Below are positions 30,377 through 36,404 of a DNA stretch of 36,457 nt, piece by piece. This DNA is from Eubacteriales bacterium. GTDB lineage: Bacteria > Bacillota > Clostridia > Lachnospirales > Lachnospiraceae. The position numbers and the translations under genes were made by a program. How positions within the stretch are numbered: position 1 is the stretch's first letter; every line of letters starts with the position of its first letter. The notes under the pieces were generated by a model. The model was not told where the DNA came from. It saw only the letters and a program-made list of their open reading frames with translations, and searched no databases. The stretch lies in NCBI GenBank assembly GCA_030537135.1, contig JAUNOP010000030.1:1-36457 (forward strand), given 5' to 3'.

Positions 30377-30784
30377 TTATATGTCTCCATTCACAAGATC
30401 TGCAATAGTGATTTTATAGAAGAAATCATGAACCATTGCATCGTATTTCTTCCACATAGGCAATGTCTTACATACTTTTTCTCTCGGGCAGATTTCTGCA
30501 TTTTCGTCCAGGCAGGCAACGGTTGCCAATGTTCCTTCTGCTATTTTTAATATTTCACCAACTGTATATTCCTCTGGCTTGCGGAGTAGGCGATACCCGC
30601 CTCCTTTTCCGCTGACACCCTTTACCAGCTTTCCTCTTACTAATAGTTTTACGATAATCTCCAGATATTTTTTCGATATTTCCTGTCGCTTCGCCACATC
30701 ATCAAGCGGCACCAGGACTCCTTCCGGCTGTTCAGCCAGATCTATCATAAAACGGATTGCATATCTTCCTTTGGTTGAAATCAT
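30377..30784 (-). CDS. Rrf2-family transcriptional regulator with three cysteines
   Basis: 135 aa. An N-terminal winged helix (MISTKGRYAIRFMIDLAEQP, then QEISKKYLEIIVKLLVRGKL and VKGVSGKGGGYRLLRKPEEY) is typical of Rrf2. C91, C99 and C105 (CLDENAEICPREKVC) are spaced as in IscR-type Fe-S regulators, whereas the CymR cysteine regulator lacks them. AAAGGAGG precedes the ATG. Its promoter is spanned by a perfect ten-base dyad (30802-30833), and a related half site lies in the divergent transport promoter. It is therefore probably autoregulatory and controls the importer operon in response to cysteine or Fe-S status. The signal is inferred. Confidence 0.92.
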   Translation of the reverse strand: MISTKGRYAIRFMIDLAEQPEGVLVPLDDVAKRQEISKKYLEIIVKLLVRGKLVKGVSGKGGGYRLLRKPEEYTVGEILKIAEGTLATVACLDENAEICPREKVCKTLPMWKKYDAMVHDFFYKITIADLVNGDI

Positions 30785-30838: not shown

Positions 30839-30859
30839 CAAAAAAAGAAATTTTTTTCA

Positions 30860-30896
30860 TTTACCTATTGACTAAGTAGGAAAATAGATGTATAGT
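30860..30896 (+). promoter_or_regulatory. Promoter and repressor site of the transport operon
   Basis: TTGACT (30868-30873), 17 bases, TATAGT (30891-30896). TTTACCTATT (30860-30869) repeats the operator half site of the divergent regulator gene, and CCTATT-GACT-AAGTAGG is a looser dyad over the -35 box. This suggests repression of both genes by the Rrf2 protein. Confidence 0.7.
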
Positions 30897-30942
30897 AAAA
30901 CCATCGAATTTGAGCAACCAATCACGAAAGGAGAGGAATGCA

Positions 30943-31059
30943 ATGTACAGAACAAACACTTCTTATGAGTTCATCATGTGTTGTAGCCGAATGTTATTTC
31001 CCCGGGCATATCTATATGGCCAGGTGCGTTCGTCTGCTTTGTGCTGCACCAATGTATAG
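30943..31059 (+). CDS. Candidate Cys-rich leader peptide
   Basis: 38 codons: MYRTNTSYEFIMCCSRML, then FPRAYLYGQVRSSALCCTNV. GGAGAGG lies six to nine bases before the ATG. Cysteine codons occur as two adjacent pairs, TGTTGT (codons 13-14) and TGCTGC (codons 34-35), which is unusual enrichment for so short a frame ahead of probable sulfur amino acid importers. The stop TAG overlaps the 5' arm of the next hairpin. An alternative frame from the ATG at 30938 (49 codons, ending 31087) also has five Cys codons, but its ribosome-site spacing is short. Proposed role: sensing Cys-tRNA supply by ribosome stalling. Confidence 0.5.
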   Translation: MYRTNTSYEFIMCCSRMLFPRAYLYGQVRSSALCCTNV

Positions 31060-31129
31060 CATTTCACTGGTAAATGAAGTGCTATAAACGCCATTTGCCC
31101 GGGAGCTTGTTTGAAGCCCCGGTTTTTTT
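31001..31129 (+). terminator. Leader attenuator with competing structures
   Basis: The intrinsic terminator is CCGGGAGCTT (31099-31108) with AAGCCCCGG (31114-31122), one bulged A, followed by seven T (31123-31129), 65 bases before the first structural gene. CCCGGGCA (31001-31008), inside the leader peptide frame, is perfectly complementary to TGCCCGGG (31096-31103), which includes the terminator's 5' arm, so pairing would prevent termination. A ten-pair hairpin TAGCATTTCA/TGAAGTGCTA (31057-31084) lies between. No T-box or SAM riboswitch core motif is seen. Confidence 0.65.
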
Positions 31130-31194
31130 GCGCTCAGATTCCTTACATGGTGCGAACTTATCACCTGAAAAAATTTGAAAAGAGGTAAATAATT

Positions 31195-32832
31195 ATGAAA
31201 AAGTATTTGAAAAGAGCAGGAGCTGCACTCCTTGGGTTAACACTTGCAGTAGCATCCCTTTCCGTGTGCAACGCAAAACAAGATACAGCCACCAAGCAGG
31301 ATGCTTCTTCTGCTGAAAATGTTGTATATAGAACTGTGGATGAAATTAAAGAAAGCGGAACGATCAATATCGGTGTATTCTCTGATAAGAGCCCTTTCGG
31401 TTATGTAGATGAAAATGGTGAATATCAGGGTTATGATGTGTATTTCGGCAATCGAATTGGCGAAGATCTTGGAGTCAAGATTAATTACGTATCTACTGAG
31501 GCTGCAAATCGTATCGAGTATCTCCAGACCGGAAAGGTTGATATCATTCTCGCAAACTTCACTGTCACAGAAGAACGTGCGCAGGAAGTAGATTTTGCTC
31601 TTCCATATATGAATGTTGCTTTGGGCATTGTATCTCCGGACGATGCAGTCATTACAAATCTTGATGATATCGGAGCTGATGATGAAGTGATCGTTATTTC
31701 CGGAACAACCGCTGAAACTTATCTGGAAAAGAATCATCCGAACATCAAGCTGCAGAAGTATGATGCATACGCAGAAGCGAAAACAGCATTTGAGAATGGC
31801 AACGGCGTCGCATGGGCAAATGACAATACCGAGGTAATCGCATTTGCTATTGAAAATCCAGGATATACTGTTGGAATTCCTTCTCTTGGAAGCGCAGACA
31901 CAATTGCAGCCGCAGTAACAAAAGGCAATGAAAGTCTTCTGAACTGGCTGAATGATGAAATTGTTGCTCTGGGCGAAGAGAATTTCTTTCATGAAGACTA
32001 CGAAGCAACTCTCTTTGATACTTATGGAAAAGAATATGAAGATACTCTTGTAGTTGAAGGTGGTGTTGTCGCAAGCGGTGAAGAAACAACAGAAAGCAAG
32101 GGAACCATTACAGTAGCAGCATCTCCTACTCCCCATGCAGAAATCTTGGCACAGGCAGCAAAGCTTCTTGCTGCGCAGGGTTGGACTCTTGAAGTTACTG
32201 AATTTGAAGATTATGTTCAACCGAATCTTGTAGTCGACAGCGGAGATATTGATGCGAACTATTTCCAGCATGCTCCTTATCTGGATAACTTCAATAAAGA
32301 AAATGGTACCTCGCTGGTATCTGTAGCTGGTATTCACTATGAGCCTTTTGGTATTTATCCAGGCACCAAGTCAGATCTTTCAGAACTAAGCGATGGCGAT
32401 GTGATCGCAGTACCGAACGACACAACGAACGAAGCAAGAGCGCTTCTGCTCCTTCAGGACAATGGAATTATTAAGCTCAAGGACGGCGCTGACCTGCTGG
32501 CAACGGTAAAGGATATTGAGGAGAATCCTCATAACATAAAGATTCAGGAGCTTGAGGCTGCTCAGGTATCCAGAGTGAAAGATGAAGTTGCATTTGTGGT
32601 ATTAAATGGAAATTACGCGCTTGAGGCTGGTTTCTCAGTTGCACATGATGCAGTTGCTTATGAAACAAGCGATTCTGTAGCAGCACAGACATATGTGAAT
32701 ATCCTTGTAGTAAAAGAAGGAAACGAAAATAATGAAGGAATCTTGGCACTTGCTGAAGTACTGAAATCTGACGAAATTAAACAGTATATTATTGATACCT
32801 ATGATGGAGCAGTTGTTCCATTTGAGGATTAA
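31195..32832 (+). CDS. Two-domain solute-binding protein: SBP_bac_3 fused to NlpA/MetQ
   Basis: 545 aa, about twice the size of one binding protein. The signal peptide is MKKYLKRAGAALLGLTLAVA followed by SLSVCNAK; C25 may be a lipoprotein cysteine, but Val at -1 is atypical. Residues ~44-285 are an SBP_bac_3 (amino acid) domain: SGTINIGVFSDKSPFGYVDE, then GYDVYFGNRIGEDL and DIILANFTVTEERAQEVDFA. An acidic linker (~286-302, VVASGEETTESKG) leads to residues ~303-545, an NlpA/MetQ domain: TITVAASPTPHAEILAQAAK, DANYFQHAPYLDNFN, GIHYEPFGIYPGT and AVPNDTTNEARALLLLQDNG. It is followed by a MetNI pair and a polar-amino-acid ABC set, so each domain probably serves one importer. AAGAGG precedes the ATG. 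Confidence 0.9.
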   Translation: MKKYLKRAGAALLGLTLAVASLSVCNAKQDTATKQDASSAENVVYRTVDEIKESGTINIGVFSDKSPFGYVDENGEYQGYDVYFGNRIGEDLGVKINYVSTEAANRIEYLQTGKVDIILANFTVTEERAQEVDFALPYMNVALGIVSPDDAVITNLDDIGADDEVIVISGTTAETYLEKNHPNIKLQKYDAYAEAKTAFENGNGVAWANDNTEVIAFAIENPGYTVGIPSLGSADTIAAAVTKGNESLLNWLNDEIVALGEENFFHEDYEATLFDTYGKEYEDTLVVEGGVVASGEETTESKGTITVAASPTPHAEILAQAAKLLAAQGWTLEVTEFEDYVQPNLVVDSGDIDANYFQHAPYLDNFNKENGTSLVSVAGIHYEPFGIYPGTKSDLSELSDGDVIAVPNDTTNEARALLLLQDNGIIKLKDGADLLATVKDIEENPHNIKIQELEAAQVSRVKDEVAFVVLNGNYALEAGFSVAHDAVAYETSDSVAAQTYVNILVVKEGNENNEGILALAEVLKSDEIKQYIIDTYDGAVVPFED

Positions 32833-32903: not shown

Positions 32904-33677
32904 ATGAATGAGAATTATATTATGCTGAATTCCCTTTCCAAACGGTATTTGGCTAAAAACGGGTCTGTCGAGGCTCTGAAAAATGTGTCTCTTAGCATTG
33001 CTCAGAATGAGATTTTTGGTGTGATTGGGTTATCCGGAGCTGGAAAAAGTACATTGGTACGATGTATCAACCTTCTGGAACGTCCAGACAGCGGAGAGAT
33101 CCTCATTGATGGGGAGAATCTTCAGAACCTGAATAATGAACAGCTTCGCCTGCGACGACAGAAAATCGGAATGATCTTTCAGCATTTTAACCTGCTGGAG
33201 CAACAGACAGTATTAAACAATGTATGTTTTCCGTTAGAAATTCGTGGAGTTCAGAGAAAAGAGCGGGTGCAGAAGGCTCTGGCATTGCTTGAGAAAGTCG
33301 GTCTTGCAGAAAAGGCGGAGGCATATCCCTCCCAGCTCTCAGGCGGACAAAAGCAGCGTGTTGCAATCGCCAGAGTGTTGACAAACGAACCGGATATTTT
33401 GCTTTGCGATGAAGCGACAAGTGCCTTGGATCCGGAAACCACAAAGACCATTCTGGGTCTTTTGAAAACAATCCATGACACAATGGGGATTACTATAATT
33501 ATCATTACTCATGAAATGAAGGTAATTCAGGAAATCTGTTCAAGCGTTGCCGTACTTGAAAACGGTGAGGTACAGGAAGTTGGCACAGTCTCTGAACTCT
33601 TTGCAAATCCAAAATCCAAAGCAGCAAAACGGTTATTACTGTTGGAAGAAAAGGAGGAAGAGGAGCATGTGGGATAA
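32904..33677 (+). CDS. MetN-type ABC importer ATPase lacking the NIL domain
   Basis: 257 aa. Walker A GLSGAGKSTLVR (about 42-53), Q-loop FQHFNLLEQQTV, signature LSGGQKQRVAIARVL, Walker B DILLCDEATSALDPETT and the His switch IIITHEM. The text is closest to MetN methionine importers, and the next gene is a MetI-type permease. Typical MetN is ~340 aa with a C-terminal NIL/ACT-like domain that binds methionine and inhibits transport. This protein stops soon after the ATPase core (LLLLEEKEEEEHVG), so that feedback domain is absent. The stop overlaps the permease start by 11 bases. Confidence 0.92.
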   Translation: MNENYIMLNSLSKRYLAKNGSVEALKNVSLSIAQNEIFGVIGLSGAGKSTLVRCINLLERPDSGEILIDGENLQNLNNEQLRLRRQKIGMIFQHFNLLEQQTVLNNVCFPLEIRGVQRKERVQKALALLEKVGLAEKAEAYPSQLSGGQKQRVAIARVLTNEPDILLCDEATSALDPETTKTILGLLKTIHDTMGITIIIITHEMKVIQEICSSVAVLENGEVQEVGTVSELFANPKSKAAKRLLLLEEKEEEEHVG

Positions 33678-34332
33678 TACTATGACAGTCATGATGCTGG
33701 AGGGTATTTGGGATACCGTTTATATGACCGTAATATCCACCATTTTCGGATATGTAATCGGTCTTCCTCTTGGAGTGGCTCTTACTCTTACAGATAAGAA
33801 TGGACTTAGCGCAAACCAGACAATATACAGCATCCTTGATGTGATCATCAACATTACAAGAAGCATTCCGTTTTTAATTCTGCTGATTGTGGTAATGCCT
33901 CTGACAAAGCTGCTTGTAGGTAAAAGCTACGGCTCAACGGCGACTATTGTACCGCTTACCTTGGCAGCTGCACCTCTTATTGGGCGTATGGTAGAGTCAT
34001 CTTTGAAAGAAGTAAACAAGGGTGTCATTGAAGCCGCTGTCAGTATGGGTGCAAAGACAAGAACGATTGTTTTCAAAGTTTTAATTGGAGAGGCTCGTAC
34101 CTCTCTTCTGGTCGGAGTGACAATCGTACTGGGTACCGTACTCGGATACTCAGCTATGGCAGGAGTGGTTGGAGGCGGTGGCCTTGGCGATATTGCAATC
34201 CGTTATGGTTACTACCGATACGACACTCCAATTATGATTGTCACATTGGTGTTCATTATCGCCATTGTTCAGCTTATGCAGTTTGTTGGAACACTTTTAG
34301 CAAAAAGAATGGATCACAGAAATAATGAATGA
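33667..34332 (+). CDS. MetI-type ABC importer permease
   Basis: 221 aa, inner membrane, about five helices. I use the ATG at 33667, which follows a run of AGGAGG/GAGGAG and overlaps the end of the ATPase gene. The permease coupling motif is EAAVSMGAKTRTIVFKVLIG, preceded by INITRSIPFLILLIVVMPLT and followed by VLGYSAMAGVVGGGGLGDIA, all typical of MetI. It should pair with the upstream ATPase and with the NlpA/MetQ half of the fused receptor to import methionine or a related D/L-amino acid or dipeptide. Confidence 0.92.
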   Translation: MWDNTMTVMMLEGIWDTVYMTVISTIFGYVIGLPLGVALTLTDKNGLSANQTIYSILDVIINITRSIPFLILLIVVMPLTKLLVGKSYGSTATIVPLTLAAAPLIGRMVESSLKEVNKGVIEAAVSMGAKTRTIVFKVLIGEARTSLLVGVTIVLGTVLGYSAMAGVVGGGGLGDIAIRYGYYRYDTPIMIVTLVFIIAIVQLMQFVGTLLAKRMDHRNNE

Positions 34333-34349
34333 TTGAGGAGGTGGGTATT

Positions 34350-35009
34350 GTGGATTTAGATGTTATGACTTCCTATCTCCCACTCTATAAGGAAGCGCTT
34401 TTCTTAACCATGAGAGTTGGATGGAAAGGTGTGTTCATTGCTGTTATGATTGGATTACTTGGATCTGCAATCCTTCATTTTAAAATCCCGATTGTAAAAA
34501 AAGTCGTCTCTGCCTATACGCAGTTGTTTCGAAATACACCGCTCCTGGTTCAATTATTCTTTATATATTTTGCCTTACCCAAAATCGGAATCCGCGTCTC
34601 CCCTGAAAGCTGCGGAACCTGGGGACTTGGACTTCTTGGGGGCGCGTATATGACAGAAACGTTTCGAAGCGGGCTGGAAAACATTCCAAGGATTCAGTTT
34701 GAAAGCGCAGAAAGTCTGGGTATGAGTCGCGGTCAGGCGTTTCACTGCGTGATTCTTCCGCAGGCAATTTCATCCAGTGCTCCCGGACTGGTTGCAAATG
34801 TTGTCTTTCTTTTAAAAGAAACAAGTGTATTTTCTACTATTAGTCTTATGGATTTGATGTTTACGGCTAAGGATCTTATCGGAATGTATGCAAAAACGAT
34901 CGAGTGTCTAACCCTTTTGGTGTTGTTTTACCTGATTATGCTTTTGCCGGTGTCCATTCTCGGAGACCTGCTGGAAAGGAGGCTTCGCCATGCAGAATTT
35001 GGGGATTGA
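34350..35009 (+). CDS. Polar amino acid ABC permease 1 (HisM/GlnP-like)
   Basis: 219 aa from the GTG at 34350, chosen because AGGAGG lies eight bases upstream; the ATG at 34329 overlaps the metI-type stop but has no ribosome site of its own. Several hydrophobic helices are visible, with YTQLFRNTPLLVQLFFIYFA and the coupling motif ESAESLGMSRGQAFHCVILP near the middle. These are features of the His/Glu/Gln/Arg/cystine permease family. It forms a probable heterodimer with the next permease, serving the SBP_bac_3 half of the receptor. Substrate is inferred only from context (sulfur amino acids such as cystine). Confidence 0.9.
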   Translation: MDLDVMTSYLPLYKEALFLTMRVGWKGVFIAVMIGLLGSAILHFKIPIVKKVVSAYTQLFRNTPLLVQLFFIYFALPKIGIRVSPESCGTWGLGLLGGAYMTETFRSGLENIPRIQFESAESLGMSRGQAFHCVILPQAISSSAPGLVANVVFLLKETSVFSTISLMDLMFTAKDLIGMYAKTIECLTLLVLFYLIMLLPVSILGDLLERRLRHAEFGD

Positions 35010-35664
35010 CGTTCTCTTCAAAGGAACAAACTTTGTGCGATTGCTCTTGGGTCTGTGGGTTGCAGTCCGGATCAGCCTGATTTCCGTTATCATCAGTATT
35101 GTACTTGGCTTAATTGTTGGTGTCCTGATGACGTCGAAGAATAAAGCTTTGAAAGCTGTCTTTCGAGTTTATCTTGAAATCGTACGCATCATGCCACAGA
35201 TGGTACTTTTGTTTATTGTATATTTTGGAACAACAAGGATTTTTGGATGGAATCTGGACGCTGAAGTCTCAGCAGTCCTTGTGTTTAGTTTTTGGGGTAC
35301 AGCTGAAATGGGGGATTTGGTACGCGGCGCACTCATCAGCATTCCAAAGCTTCAATATGAAAGCGCTATGGCTCTCGGAATGGATGGAAAACAAATCTAC
35401 TATTATGTGATTCTTCCACAGACAATACGAAGATTGATTCCTCTATCCATAAACCTGATTACAAGAATGATCAAGACAACCAGTCTTGTTATGATGATTG
35501 GTATCATAGAGGTTTTGAAGGTTGCACAGCAGATCATTGAGGCGAATCGAAGAAGCTCTCCTAACGCTGCTTTTGGAGTCTTTGCCGTAGTGTTTGTGTT
35601 GTATTTTCTGATTTGCTGGCCGATCAGCAGGTTATCCGTTTATCTGGAAAAGAGGTGGTCATGA
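34990..35664 (+). CDS. Polar amino acid ABC permease 2 (HisQ/GlnP-like)
   Basis: 224 aa. AAAGGAGG is seven bases before the ATG, which lies inside the end of permease 1 (20-base overlap), indicating translational coupling. Hydrophobic helices, RVYLEIVRIMPQMVLLFIVY and the coupling motif ESAMALGMDGKQIYYYVILP mark the same family as permease 1, but the sequences differ clearly, so a heterodimeric channel is likely. The stop overlaps the start of the ATPase gene. Confidence 0.91.
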   Translation: MQNLGIDVLFKGTNFVRLLLGLWVAVRISLISVIISIVLGLIVGVLMTSKNKALKAVFRVYLEIVRIMPQMVLLFIVYFGTTRIFGWNLDAEVSAVLVFSFWGTAEMGDLVRGALISIPKLQYESAMALGMDGKQIYYYVILPQTIRRLIPLSINLITRMIKTTSLVMMIGIIEVLKVAQQIIEANRRSSPNAAFGVFAVVFVLYFLICWPISRLSVYLEKRWS

Positions 35665-36404
35665 TGACGCATATACTTTTATCGGTCAAAAACCTTCACA
35701 AGGAATTTGGCCAGAATGTAATTCTAAAAAATATGAATCTTAAAGTTGACAAGGGAGAAGTAATTGTAATTATCGGACCATCCGGCTGCGGCAAAAGCAC
35801 GTTTCTTCGCTGCCTGAATGGTTTGGAGGATATCCAGAGTGGAGAAATTTATCTGAATGGCAAACGACTTCAAAAAAATGCGAAGGACATTTCTTCCATG
35901 CGGCAAAAAATCGGGATGGTTTTTCAAAGCTACGATCTGTTTCCACACAAAACAGCTCTGGAAAACATACTTTTGGCGCCGTTGAAGGTTCAGAAAAGGA
36001 AACGTACAGAGGCCGAAGCAGAGGCTATCGAGCTACTTAATAAGGTTGGGCTGGCTGATCGTAAGAATGCTTATCCACGGCAGTTATCTGGAGGGCAAAA
36101 GCAGCGAATTGCCATTGTAAGAGCCCTGATCATGCATCCAGAGGTACTCCTCCTGGATGAAATTACTGCGGCACTTGATCCGGAAATGGTTCATGAGGTA
36201 CTGCAGGTTGTTCTAAATCTTGCAAAAAGCGGCAGCACTATGCTGATTGTTACCCATGAGATGGCCTTTGCAAAAGCTATTGCTGACCGTGTGTTGTTTT
36301 TGGAACATGGAGAAATTGTGGAAGAAAGCCGGGAACCAAAAAAATTTTTTCTAGCGCCAAAAACAGAGCGAGCCAGACAGTTTTTAAAGTCTTTTGAGTA
36401 CTAA
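35664..36404 (+). CDS. Polar amino acid ABC importer ATPase (GlnQ/TcyC-like)
   Basis: 246 aa from the ATG at 35664, eight bases after GAGG; the adjacent ATG at 35661 is an equal alternative. Walker A GPSGCGKSTFLR, FQSYDLFPHKTALENILLAP for the Q-loop region, signature LSGGQKQRIAIVRAL, Walker B VLLLDEITAALDPEMV and IVTHEM. The short length without a C-terminal extension and the text fit GlnQ/HisP/TcyC. It energises permeases 1 and 2. Asparagine or other differences at the core motifs are not seen. It is the last gene of the operon. Confidence 0.93.
   Translation: MTHILLSVKNLHKEFGQNVILKNMNLKVDKGEVIVIIGPSGCGKSTFLRCLNGLEDIQSGEIYLNGKRLQKNAKDISSMRQKIGMVFQSYDLFPHKTALENILLAPLKVQKRKRTEAEAEAIELLNKVGLADRKNAYPRQLSGGQKQRIAIVRALIMHPEVLLLDEITAALDPEMVHEVLQVVLNLAKSGSTMLIVTHEMAFAKAIADRVLFLEHGEIVEESREPKKFFLAPKTERARQFLKSFEY

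Follow-up and report, generated by a model that had tools for sequence, protein, structure and literature searches.

What controls transcription of the transport operon that begins at position 31195 of this stretch? The stretch analysed here, which we call the window, comprises 36,457 nt from a Eubacteriales bacterium, and the initial annotation was right to take the genome for a Clostridia type; the genus is probably Blautia. That annotation had proposed that a Cys-codon leader peptide and an attenuator precede the operon. In our assessment the element is very probably a transcription attenuator of the ribosome-mediated type, in which the ribosome gauges how much charged tRNA-Cys is available. 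The cysteine reading is supported by a conserved frame, the position and spacing of its Cys codons, a covarying antiterminator, a competing terminator, and a sulfur-gene context. The features of the window are listed below with their strand and basis.

30377..30784, minus strand: divergent Rrf2-family regulator (CymR/IscR-like superfamily); Pfam PF02082 (E 4.1e-33), NCBIfam TIGR00738
30863..30881, no strand assigned: operator-like palindrome ACCTATTGACTAAGTAGGA over the -35 box, probably an Rrf2-family site; consensus across leaders
30868..30896, plus strand: sigma-A-type promoter-like site, TTGACT-17 nt-TATAGT; sequence read
30930..30933, plus strand: Shine-Dalgarno (SD) site GGAG of the leader peptide; sequence, and SD with in-frame ATG in 97 of 106 copies
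30943..31059, plus strand: leader peptide gene, 38 aa, MYRTNTSYEFIMCCSRMLFPRAYLYGQVRSSALCCTNV; frame conserved in relatives
30979..30984, plus strand: regulatory Cys-Cys codons 13-14, the proposed stall site; Cys-codon counts in 106 copies
30988..30993, plus strand: near-invariant CGAATG 3' of the Cys codons; codon counts in 67 leaders
31000..31020, plus strand: 5' strand of the antiterminator within the peptide gene, CCCCGGGCA (31000-31008) and ATGGC (31016-31020); covariation with the 3' strand
31023..31050, plus strand: hairpin P2 (GGTGC/GCACC), inside the antiterminator; locus swapping and fold
31055..31086, plus strand: hairpin P3, 12 bp, holding the leader stop codon; fold, its sequence not conserved in alignments of relatives
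31090..31104, plus strand: 3' strand of the antiterminator, GCCATTTGCCCGGGA, overlapping the 5' arm of the terminator; sequence and covariation
31099..31129, plus strand: intrinsic terminator, CCGGGaGCTT-GTTTG-AAGCCCCGG and then T7; sequence, fold, and arm pairing across 60 leaders
31195..32832, plus strand: first structural gene, a fused family-3 (cystine-type) and NlpA/MetQ-type substrate-binding protein; profile matches
32904..36404, plus strand: rest of the operon, encoding a MetN-like ATPase, a MetI-like permease, two polar-amino-acid permeases, and a GlnQ/TcyN-like ATPase

Several of these parts had been described in the initial annotation and are borne out by the sequence: a 38-codon frame with a ribosome site and two Cys-Cys pairs; a hairpin and then an intrinsic terminator with seven T ahead of the first structural gene; and the full complementarity of CCCGGGCA (31001-31008) to TGCCCGGG (31096-31103). 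The second Cys pair occupies codons 34-35 (31042-31047), and the stop codon lies at 31057. The terminator arms span 31099-31108 and 31114-31122, followed by the seven T at 31123-31129, and 15 nt separate the first Cys pair from the antiterminator pairing strand. A second part of the same helix, ATGGC at 31016-31020 with GCCAT at 31090-31094, had been missed, as had the operator-like palindrome (30863-30881) and the promoter-like site that falls within it at the -35 box.

In the proposed mechanism, RNA polymerase would start at about 30903, from a promoter probably under an Rrf2-type operator, and transcribe the short peptide gene. With Cys-tRNA scarce, the ribosome would stall at the Cys pair, its footprint ending just 5' of the CCCCGGGCA...ATGGC strand. 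The freed strand would then pair with GCCAT..TGCCCGGGA once the latter is made, forming a large antiterminator that encloses P2 and P3; the terminator could not form, and the importer operon would be transcribed. With cysteine plentiful, the ribosome would run over the strand towards the stop codon and hold the two strands apart, allowing the terminator hairpin to be made and the polymerase to stop near 31129. Three points of this scheme are inferred: that the ribosome stalls, that cysteine scarcity opens rather than closes the operon, and that an Rrf2 protein binds the operator.

Conservation of the peptide frame and of the complementary segments among relatives had been set beforehand as the test that could refute the attenuator; both are strongly conserved. 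Within the genus, a DNA search of 64 genomes recovered stretches of the leader in 7, counting the window's own, and seven leaders then served to build a sequence-only model (R1). R1 matched 51 of 397 genomes of the family (taken to be Lachnospiraceae), spread over 47 of 334 genera. We then supplied the antiterminator pairs and derived a second model (R2) from 60 leaders; it matched 22 of 344 genomes of the order (13 outside the family), 14 of 391 of the class (12 outside the order, one of them weak), and 6 of 398 of the phylum (4 beyond the class, of which one is weak at E 0.001). Within the genus the leader is patchy, with R2 finding it in 9 of 64 genomes, a point that weighs against the attenuator. 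These rank counts include the window's genome and overlap in part, each rank was sampled at up to 400 genomes, and the training sequences of the models contained TGTTGT. Scanning named genomes with a pattern added at least 120 stretches. Among the matches listed, 80 titles belong for the most part to Lachnospiraceae, Oscillospiraceae/Ruminococcaceae, Saccharofermentans, and unclassified Clostridia of the rumen and gut; they also include one Ruegeria record, which had no model match, and one titled Eggerthellaceae. In the contig titled Eggerthellaceae (Actinobacteria; L203:6273-6413), the leader stands before a metY-like gene, a copy that may reflect either horizontal transfer or a mis-binned contig.

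Over 255 loci, nhmmer gave 229 distinct matches, of which 211 were kept at a core score of at least 11 and 18 below it were dropped; L071, L095, L115, L120, L126, and L158 had no match. The 211 leaders, 106 from the first DNA search and the models and 105 from the pattern scan, include close species and are not all independent. Counts within the core are partly set by construction, since Cys, Arg, Met, Ser, and other residues at codons 0-12 all raise the core score. The layout recurs in 211 distinct leaders with compensating base changes, which places it beyond chance.

The reading frame was assessed at codons -12 to -1, which lie outside the scored core. Across 106 copies, the leader frame contains 0 stops in 1272 codons, compared with 111 and 74 in the other two frames, and an SD with an in-frame ATG accompanies it in 97 copies, compared with 5 and 1. 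These counts point to a short translated ORF ahead of the first gene. They also decide against the overlapping frame from 30938, which had been suggested as the possible real peptide: it is open in the window, but an SD and ATG in that register, open to the core, occur in only 5 of 106 copies. An internal start at the ATG before the Cys run was likewise rejected, as an SD-like site accompanies it in 1 of 82 cases. The peptides vary N-terminally and share the core (M)CC-R-M-L-x-S-R-A-x-x-M-A-G. Every one of the 106 copies has a Cys codon at positions -5 to 0, and 85 have at least two; the +1 and +2 frames have one Cys codon there in 96 and 7 copies, respectively, and at least two in 25 and 1. 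Since a Cys codon also occurs in the +1 frame of 96 copies, the specific sign is the Cys pair rather than a single Cys. Both TGT and TGC are used at the Cys positions, and a further Cys codon follows core codon 12 in 88 of 106 copies. Of the 106 copies, 89 have the last Cys codon 12 nt ahead of the pairing strand; the distance is 15 nt in 9, 18 in 6, and 9 in 2. A gap of 12 nt presumably fits the size of a ribosome footprint, and judging from this spacing, a ribosome stalled at the Cys codons would be placed to free or block the antiterminator strand. Many metY-type leaders finish with CGATGTTGA (Arg-Cys-stop), a peptide end that recurs in relatives after P2.

Methionine codons also recur at the proposed stall site. 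Position -2 is Met in 62 of 106 copies and Cys in 36, with ATG and TGT differing at all three bases, and Met stands immediately 5' of the last Cys run in 82 of 106. A tentative extension, to which we give rather little credence, is that the leader senses both amino acids through stall blocks such as MCC, MMCC, MCMC, and MCMCMC, so that a shortage of either would open the operon. Alternatively, the Met preceding the last Cys run in those 82 copies may merely aid the stall. If dual sensing were true, one leader peptide would read two linked amino acids for genes that supply both.

Could the conserved nucleotides instead be the binding site of a metabolite-sensing riboswitch, for cysteine, O-acetylserine, SAM, or a similar ligand, with the short frame overlapping it by chance? 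The strong nucleotide conservation (CGAATG, TCCCGGGCA) and the structured P1/P2 would suit this idea. We consider it very improbable, as it is opposed by the conservation of a frame with an SD, no stops, and Cys codons, by the variability of the interior past P2, and by the lack of an Rfam match. With Rfam 15, the window has no match at the gathering score, T-box RF00230 included; relaxing the cut-off to E 5 for 30850-31200 yielded three snoRNA families (E 0.22-1.7) and again no T-box. Nine related sources searched in the same database showed no known riboswitch class, only a tRNA. The CGAATG motif itself (CGA in 60 and ATG in all of 67 leaders, which were located with a score that favors Arg and Met at these codons) has no general pairing partner among those tried. 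A partner in the P2 region (CGTTCG/CATTTG) scored at least 11 in 21 of 67 leaders, with about 3-5 expected; in the larger set, pairing with P2 was found in 83 of 210 leaders against 81.7 in the locus-swapped control, which is equal because the sequence is constant. Pairing of CGAATG with CATTTG of the 3' strand occurred in 80 of 196 leaders, and six permutations of the same bases scored better.

The antiterminator of the favored attenuator was evaluated in an alignment (A4) of 60 of 71 loci made with the sequence-only model, omitting 11 loci chosen beforehand (L055, L057, and L065-L073), ten of them among the weaker matches. The 15-pair helix is paired in 92.3% of cells, compared with 29-47% when one strand is slid along the other. 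That the complementary segments would covary across relatives proved correct: 30 cells show changes on both sides of a pair, where shuffling gives 5.7 on average (0 of 500 shuffles reaching this value), and 8 pairs do so where it gives 4.3 (6 of 500), with the caveat that relatedness inflates such shuffles. Examples of compensation include CCCAGGCA with TGCCTGGG, GGACA with TGTCC, and ATGACC with GGTCAT. Swapping strands between loci gave a similar picture, as 160 of 208 own pairs score high compared with a swapped mean of 111 (maximum 120). Together with the overlapping arms, this covariation indicates that the antiterminator and the intrinsic terminator are mutually exclusive; across the 60 leaders, pairing of the terminator arms is strongest at four to six central pairs.

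Codon usage in the core follows the helix. Among 67 of the 71 loci, the set also used for the CAG matches and the first count of CGAATG partners, TCC is found in 55, CGG in 53, and CAG in 10. All 10 leaders with CAG in place of CGG carry the matching T on the other strand, which implies that Arg-to-Gln substitution is tolerated if the helix is kept. The Cys positions show the opposite pattern, with either Cys codon in use and Met and Cys exchanged for one another. In the strand-pairing tally, which covered 103 of 105 pattern-scan leaders and all 106 others, the 103 with enough DNA comprised 91 with G-C, 4 with A-T, 8 with no element, and 0 that contradict the pairing; these leaders had been fetched on the 5' strand and kept if nhmmer matched, with one of 120 loci lost. 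The same data bear on nascent-peptide arrest, in which the ribosome would stall because of the conserved RMLxSRA, with cysteine or some other small molecule as the signal, rather than because of the level of tRNA-Cys. RMLxSRA is indeed kept at the peptide level in most copies, but its residues come after the Cys codons, several codons are fixed at the nucleotide level as pairing demands (TCC, CGG), and Arg gives way to Gln where the RNA helix changes from G-C to A-U. We therefore judge arrest to be about as improbable as the riboswitch.

Within the antiterminator, RNAalifold returned no interior structure (energy 0.0 in both groups, probably owing to gaps), so P2 was tested by locus swapping: 100 of 210 leaders pair well, compared with a swapped mean of 51 (maximum 64). 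Beyond P2, alignments show the interior to be variable among relatives. A candidate anti-antiterminator found by eye, UCCCGGGCAUA with UAUGGCYGGGG, was discarded since it is not kept in several CCCAGG leaders.

We then folded 187 of the 211 leaders with ViennaRNA; all values are equilibrium figures. For partial transcripts, which begin 42 nt before the core, the antiterminator probability is 0.97 with no ribosome; masking the Cys region raises it to 0.99, and masking the stop region lowers it to 0.94. For full-length transcripts, the corresponding means are 0.77, 0.87, and 0.57. In both cases the value is 0 with the pairing strand masked, which holds by construction, as masked bases may not pair. 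Because the modelled ribosome-free default in partial transcripts is the antiterminator, termination would need active translation. The full-length window RNA gives 0.015 with no ribosome, 0.79 with the Cys region masked, less than 0.001 with the stop region masked, and 0 with the strand masked; as the terminator wins here in the absence of a ribosome, the outcome would be kinetic. The stop-masked means show that the folds do not explain how a ribosome at the stop codon would block pairing. In these models, a first strand left free while the second is being synthesized tends to leave the element open, and occupation of that first strand by a ribosome would close the element.

Upstream of the leader, the palindrome belongs to a family with the consensus ACCTATTGACATAGTAGGT, an inverted repeat of ACCTAnTnnnnnAnTAGGT. 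This consensus was derived from the same leaders in which it was counted. If at most 5 mismatches are allowed, 170 of 207 leaders contain it ahead of the SD, compared with 4 of 1035 mononucleotide shuffles; among the 105 non-pattern leaders with enough DNA, 82 contain it. The ACCTA-n9-TAGGT palindrome is probably a binding site for an Rrf2-family protein. In the window's own genome, ACCTATTGACNNAGTAGG has a single exact match, and the search there showed no second target, with three 3-mismatch sites compared with 46 in the reversed control. The window's Rrf2 protein scores below both equivalog cut-offs (CymR/IscR-like). It has three Cys with the spacing C-x7-C-x5-C, which we take to be like, and not identical to, the cluster motif of IscR. 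A crude pattern for a divergent Rrf2-like start was found upstream of 32 of 197 leaders. In L104, L105, L106, L107, and L236, another conserved promoter region (GAATTTACAAAC... TATAAT) replaces the ACCTA operator. Least probable of the three rivals is that the Rrf2 regulator alone controls the operon and that the leader survives as a relic or attenuates to a fixed level, for despite the frequent operator-like site and the divergent Rrf2 gene in the window, 37 of 207 leaders lack the site and keep the leader core, and the compensatory changes point to selection on the antiterminator. Repression by the Rrf2 protein, followed by attenuation, may instead form two layers of control.

The genes downstream fit a sulfur context. 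Profile matches uphold the earlier description of a double ABC importer in the window, combining a MetN/MetI-like system with a polar amino-acid/cystine-type system and a fused binding protein. First genes were called for 203 of the 211 leaders with a simple ORF rule and clustered by BLASTP, and ten representatives were compared with NCBIfam. The 203 comprise 117 metY-like genes (O-acetylhomoserine sulfhydrylase/homocysteine synthase-like), 56 binding proteins of the same cluster as the window's, 9 amino-acid permeases, 3 metN, 2 cysK, 2 PepT-like genes, 4 in one unassigned cluster, and 10 singles. The rule erred at L004, where the frame is wrong (the true gene, MDQEFIAEYIPLYREAAV, is a permease by eye), and the call at L179 looks spurious. 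With at least two Cys codons in 85 of 106 copies and sulfur amino-acid genes downstream in most of the 203, leader and context name the same amino-acid group. The singles include one metK (L099), a weak case because its 3' strand is poor (score 9 of 20), and one sulfopropanediol dehydratase-like gene. In the latter (L028:1784-3190), the leader stands ahead of a partial gene that resembles (2S)-3-sulfopropanediol dehydratase (NF048011, below cut-off), hinting at sulfonate use under cysteine control. The unassigned cluster is that of L015, L045, L056, and L066, where the leader precedes a conserved protein (411 aa in L045, with no NCBIfam match at E 1e-20 for that copy) that presumably resembles glutathionyl-hydroquinone reductases and is a candidate thiol gene.

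Within the genus, matches to the window's binding protein cover both halves in one piece in three genomes (G000, G004, and G057); the leader lies directly ahead of the match in G000 and G004, and in G057 it lies about 2.3 kb upstream. Two further genomes, G026 and G040, probably encode fused binding proteins as well, judging from open frames of 592 and 589 aa; the leader is about 3.5 kb upstream in G026, and none was found by the genus search in G040. In the window's own genome, the best metY homologue (81%) lies 3' of the end of a cysK-like gene, judged by eye, and an R2 search of that locus detected no leader.

How does this element relate to known systems? The trp and his attenuators of Proteobacteria have a translated leader with runs of cognate codons and an antiterminator and intrinsic terminator that exclude each other. 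The Clostridia element shares the translated cognate-codon leader and the mutually exclusive structures. It differs in having Cys codons and a sequence-conserved core whose antiterminator strand is the peptide gene itself, in the absence of a clear 1:2 hairpin, and in its reuse before several different sulfur genes. To our knowledge, the cysteine T-box contains no translated ORF. The Clostridia element, unlike that T-box, has no match to the Rfam T-box family, and the same genome has four T-boxes over the cut-off elsewhere. As described in the available part of PMC2940859, the clostridial cysteine T-box detects whether tRNA-Cys is charged and governs a terminator ahead of cysteine genes; some of these genes lack a T-box, which the paper takes as a sign of further mechanisms in clostridia.

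Cys-rich leader peptides have been reported from other phyla. Mycobacterial and actinobacterial polycysteine ORFs encode such peptides before cysteine genes and, in the portion of PMC1262725 available to us, have no conserved terminator hairpin and carry their Cys runs near the stop codon. The one of M. smegmatis is termed translation attenuation in the accessible text of PMC13236596, which cites Canestrari 2020. The Clostridia element is likewise rich in Cys codons and, compared with those accounts, differs by its covarying antiterminator and intrinsic terminator and by the absence of an NCBIfam match; no NCBIfam family, those for actinobacterial cysteine leader peptides included, was found at E 0.001 for either window frame, a search that very short peptides may escape. 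Closer in logic is uORFC-8-2, for which the accessible text of PMC8632094 describes two tandem Cys codons, usually at positions 14-15, a 3' U-run terminator, the same proposed logic, restriction to cysS of Rhodobacterales, and Cys codons inside the first stem. By that description, the Clostridia element is set apart by its metY and transport genes and by Cys codons outside the stem. Within Firmicutes, the histidine leader peptides of bacilli before hisS*/hisZ were the first regular case, according to the text available from PMC2965389 (2010); the Clostridia element resembles them as a classical leader peptide and differs in amino acid, genes, and class. In the literature searched, outside subscription papers and supplements and including the partly accessible PMC8632094, PMC2965389, PMC1262725, PMC13236596, PMC2940859, PMC11109978, and PMC6429828, we found relatives in principle and no description of this element. 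The earlier suggestion that it is possibly undescribed stands to that extent, in keeping with the Rfam and NCBIfam searches. The principle of attenuation is old; what is new, as far as searched, is the family itself, together with the range of its hosts, its architecture, and the way it recurs as a module.

In clostridia, T-boxes were already known to place cysteine genes under RNA-level control. The present element would broaden leader-peptide attenuation in Firmicutes to include a large cysteine family. Because it is reused before metY-like genes, cystine and methionine import, metN, cysK, and singly others, the element marks a sulfur regulon and can hint at the functions of unknown neighbors. 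It is a candidate for RNA-level cysteine control in Lachnospiraceae, Oscillospiraceae-type, and other gut and rumen lineages.
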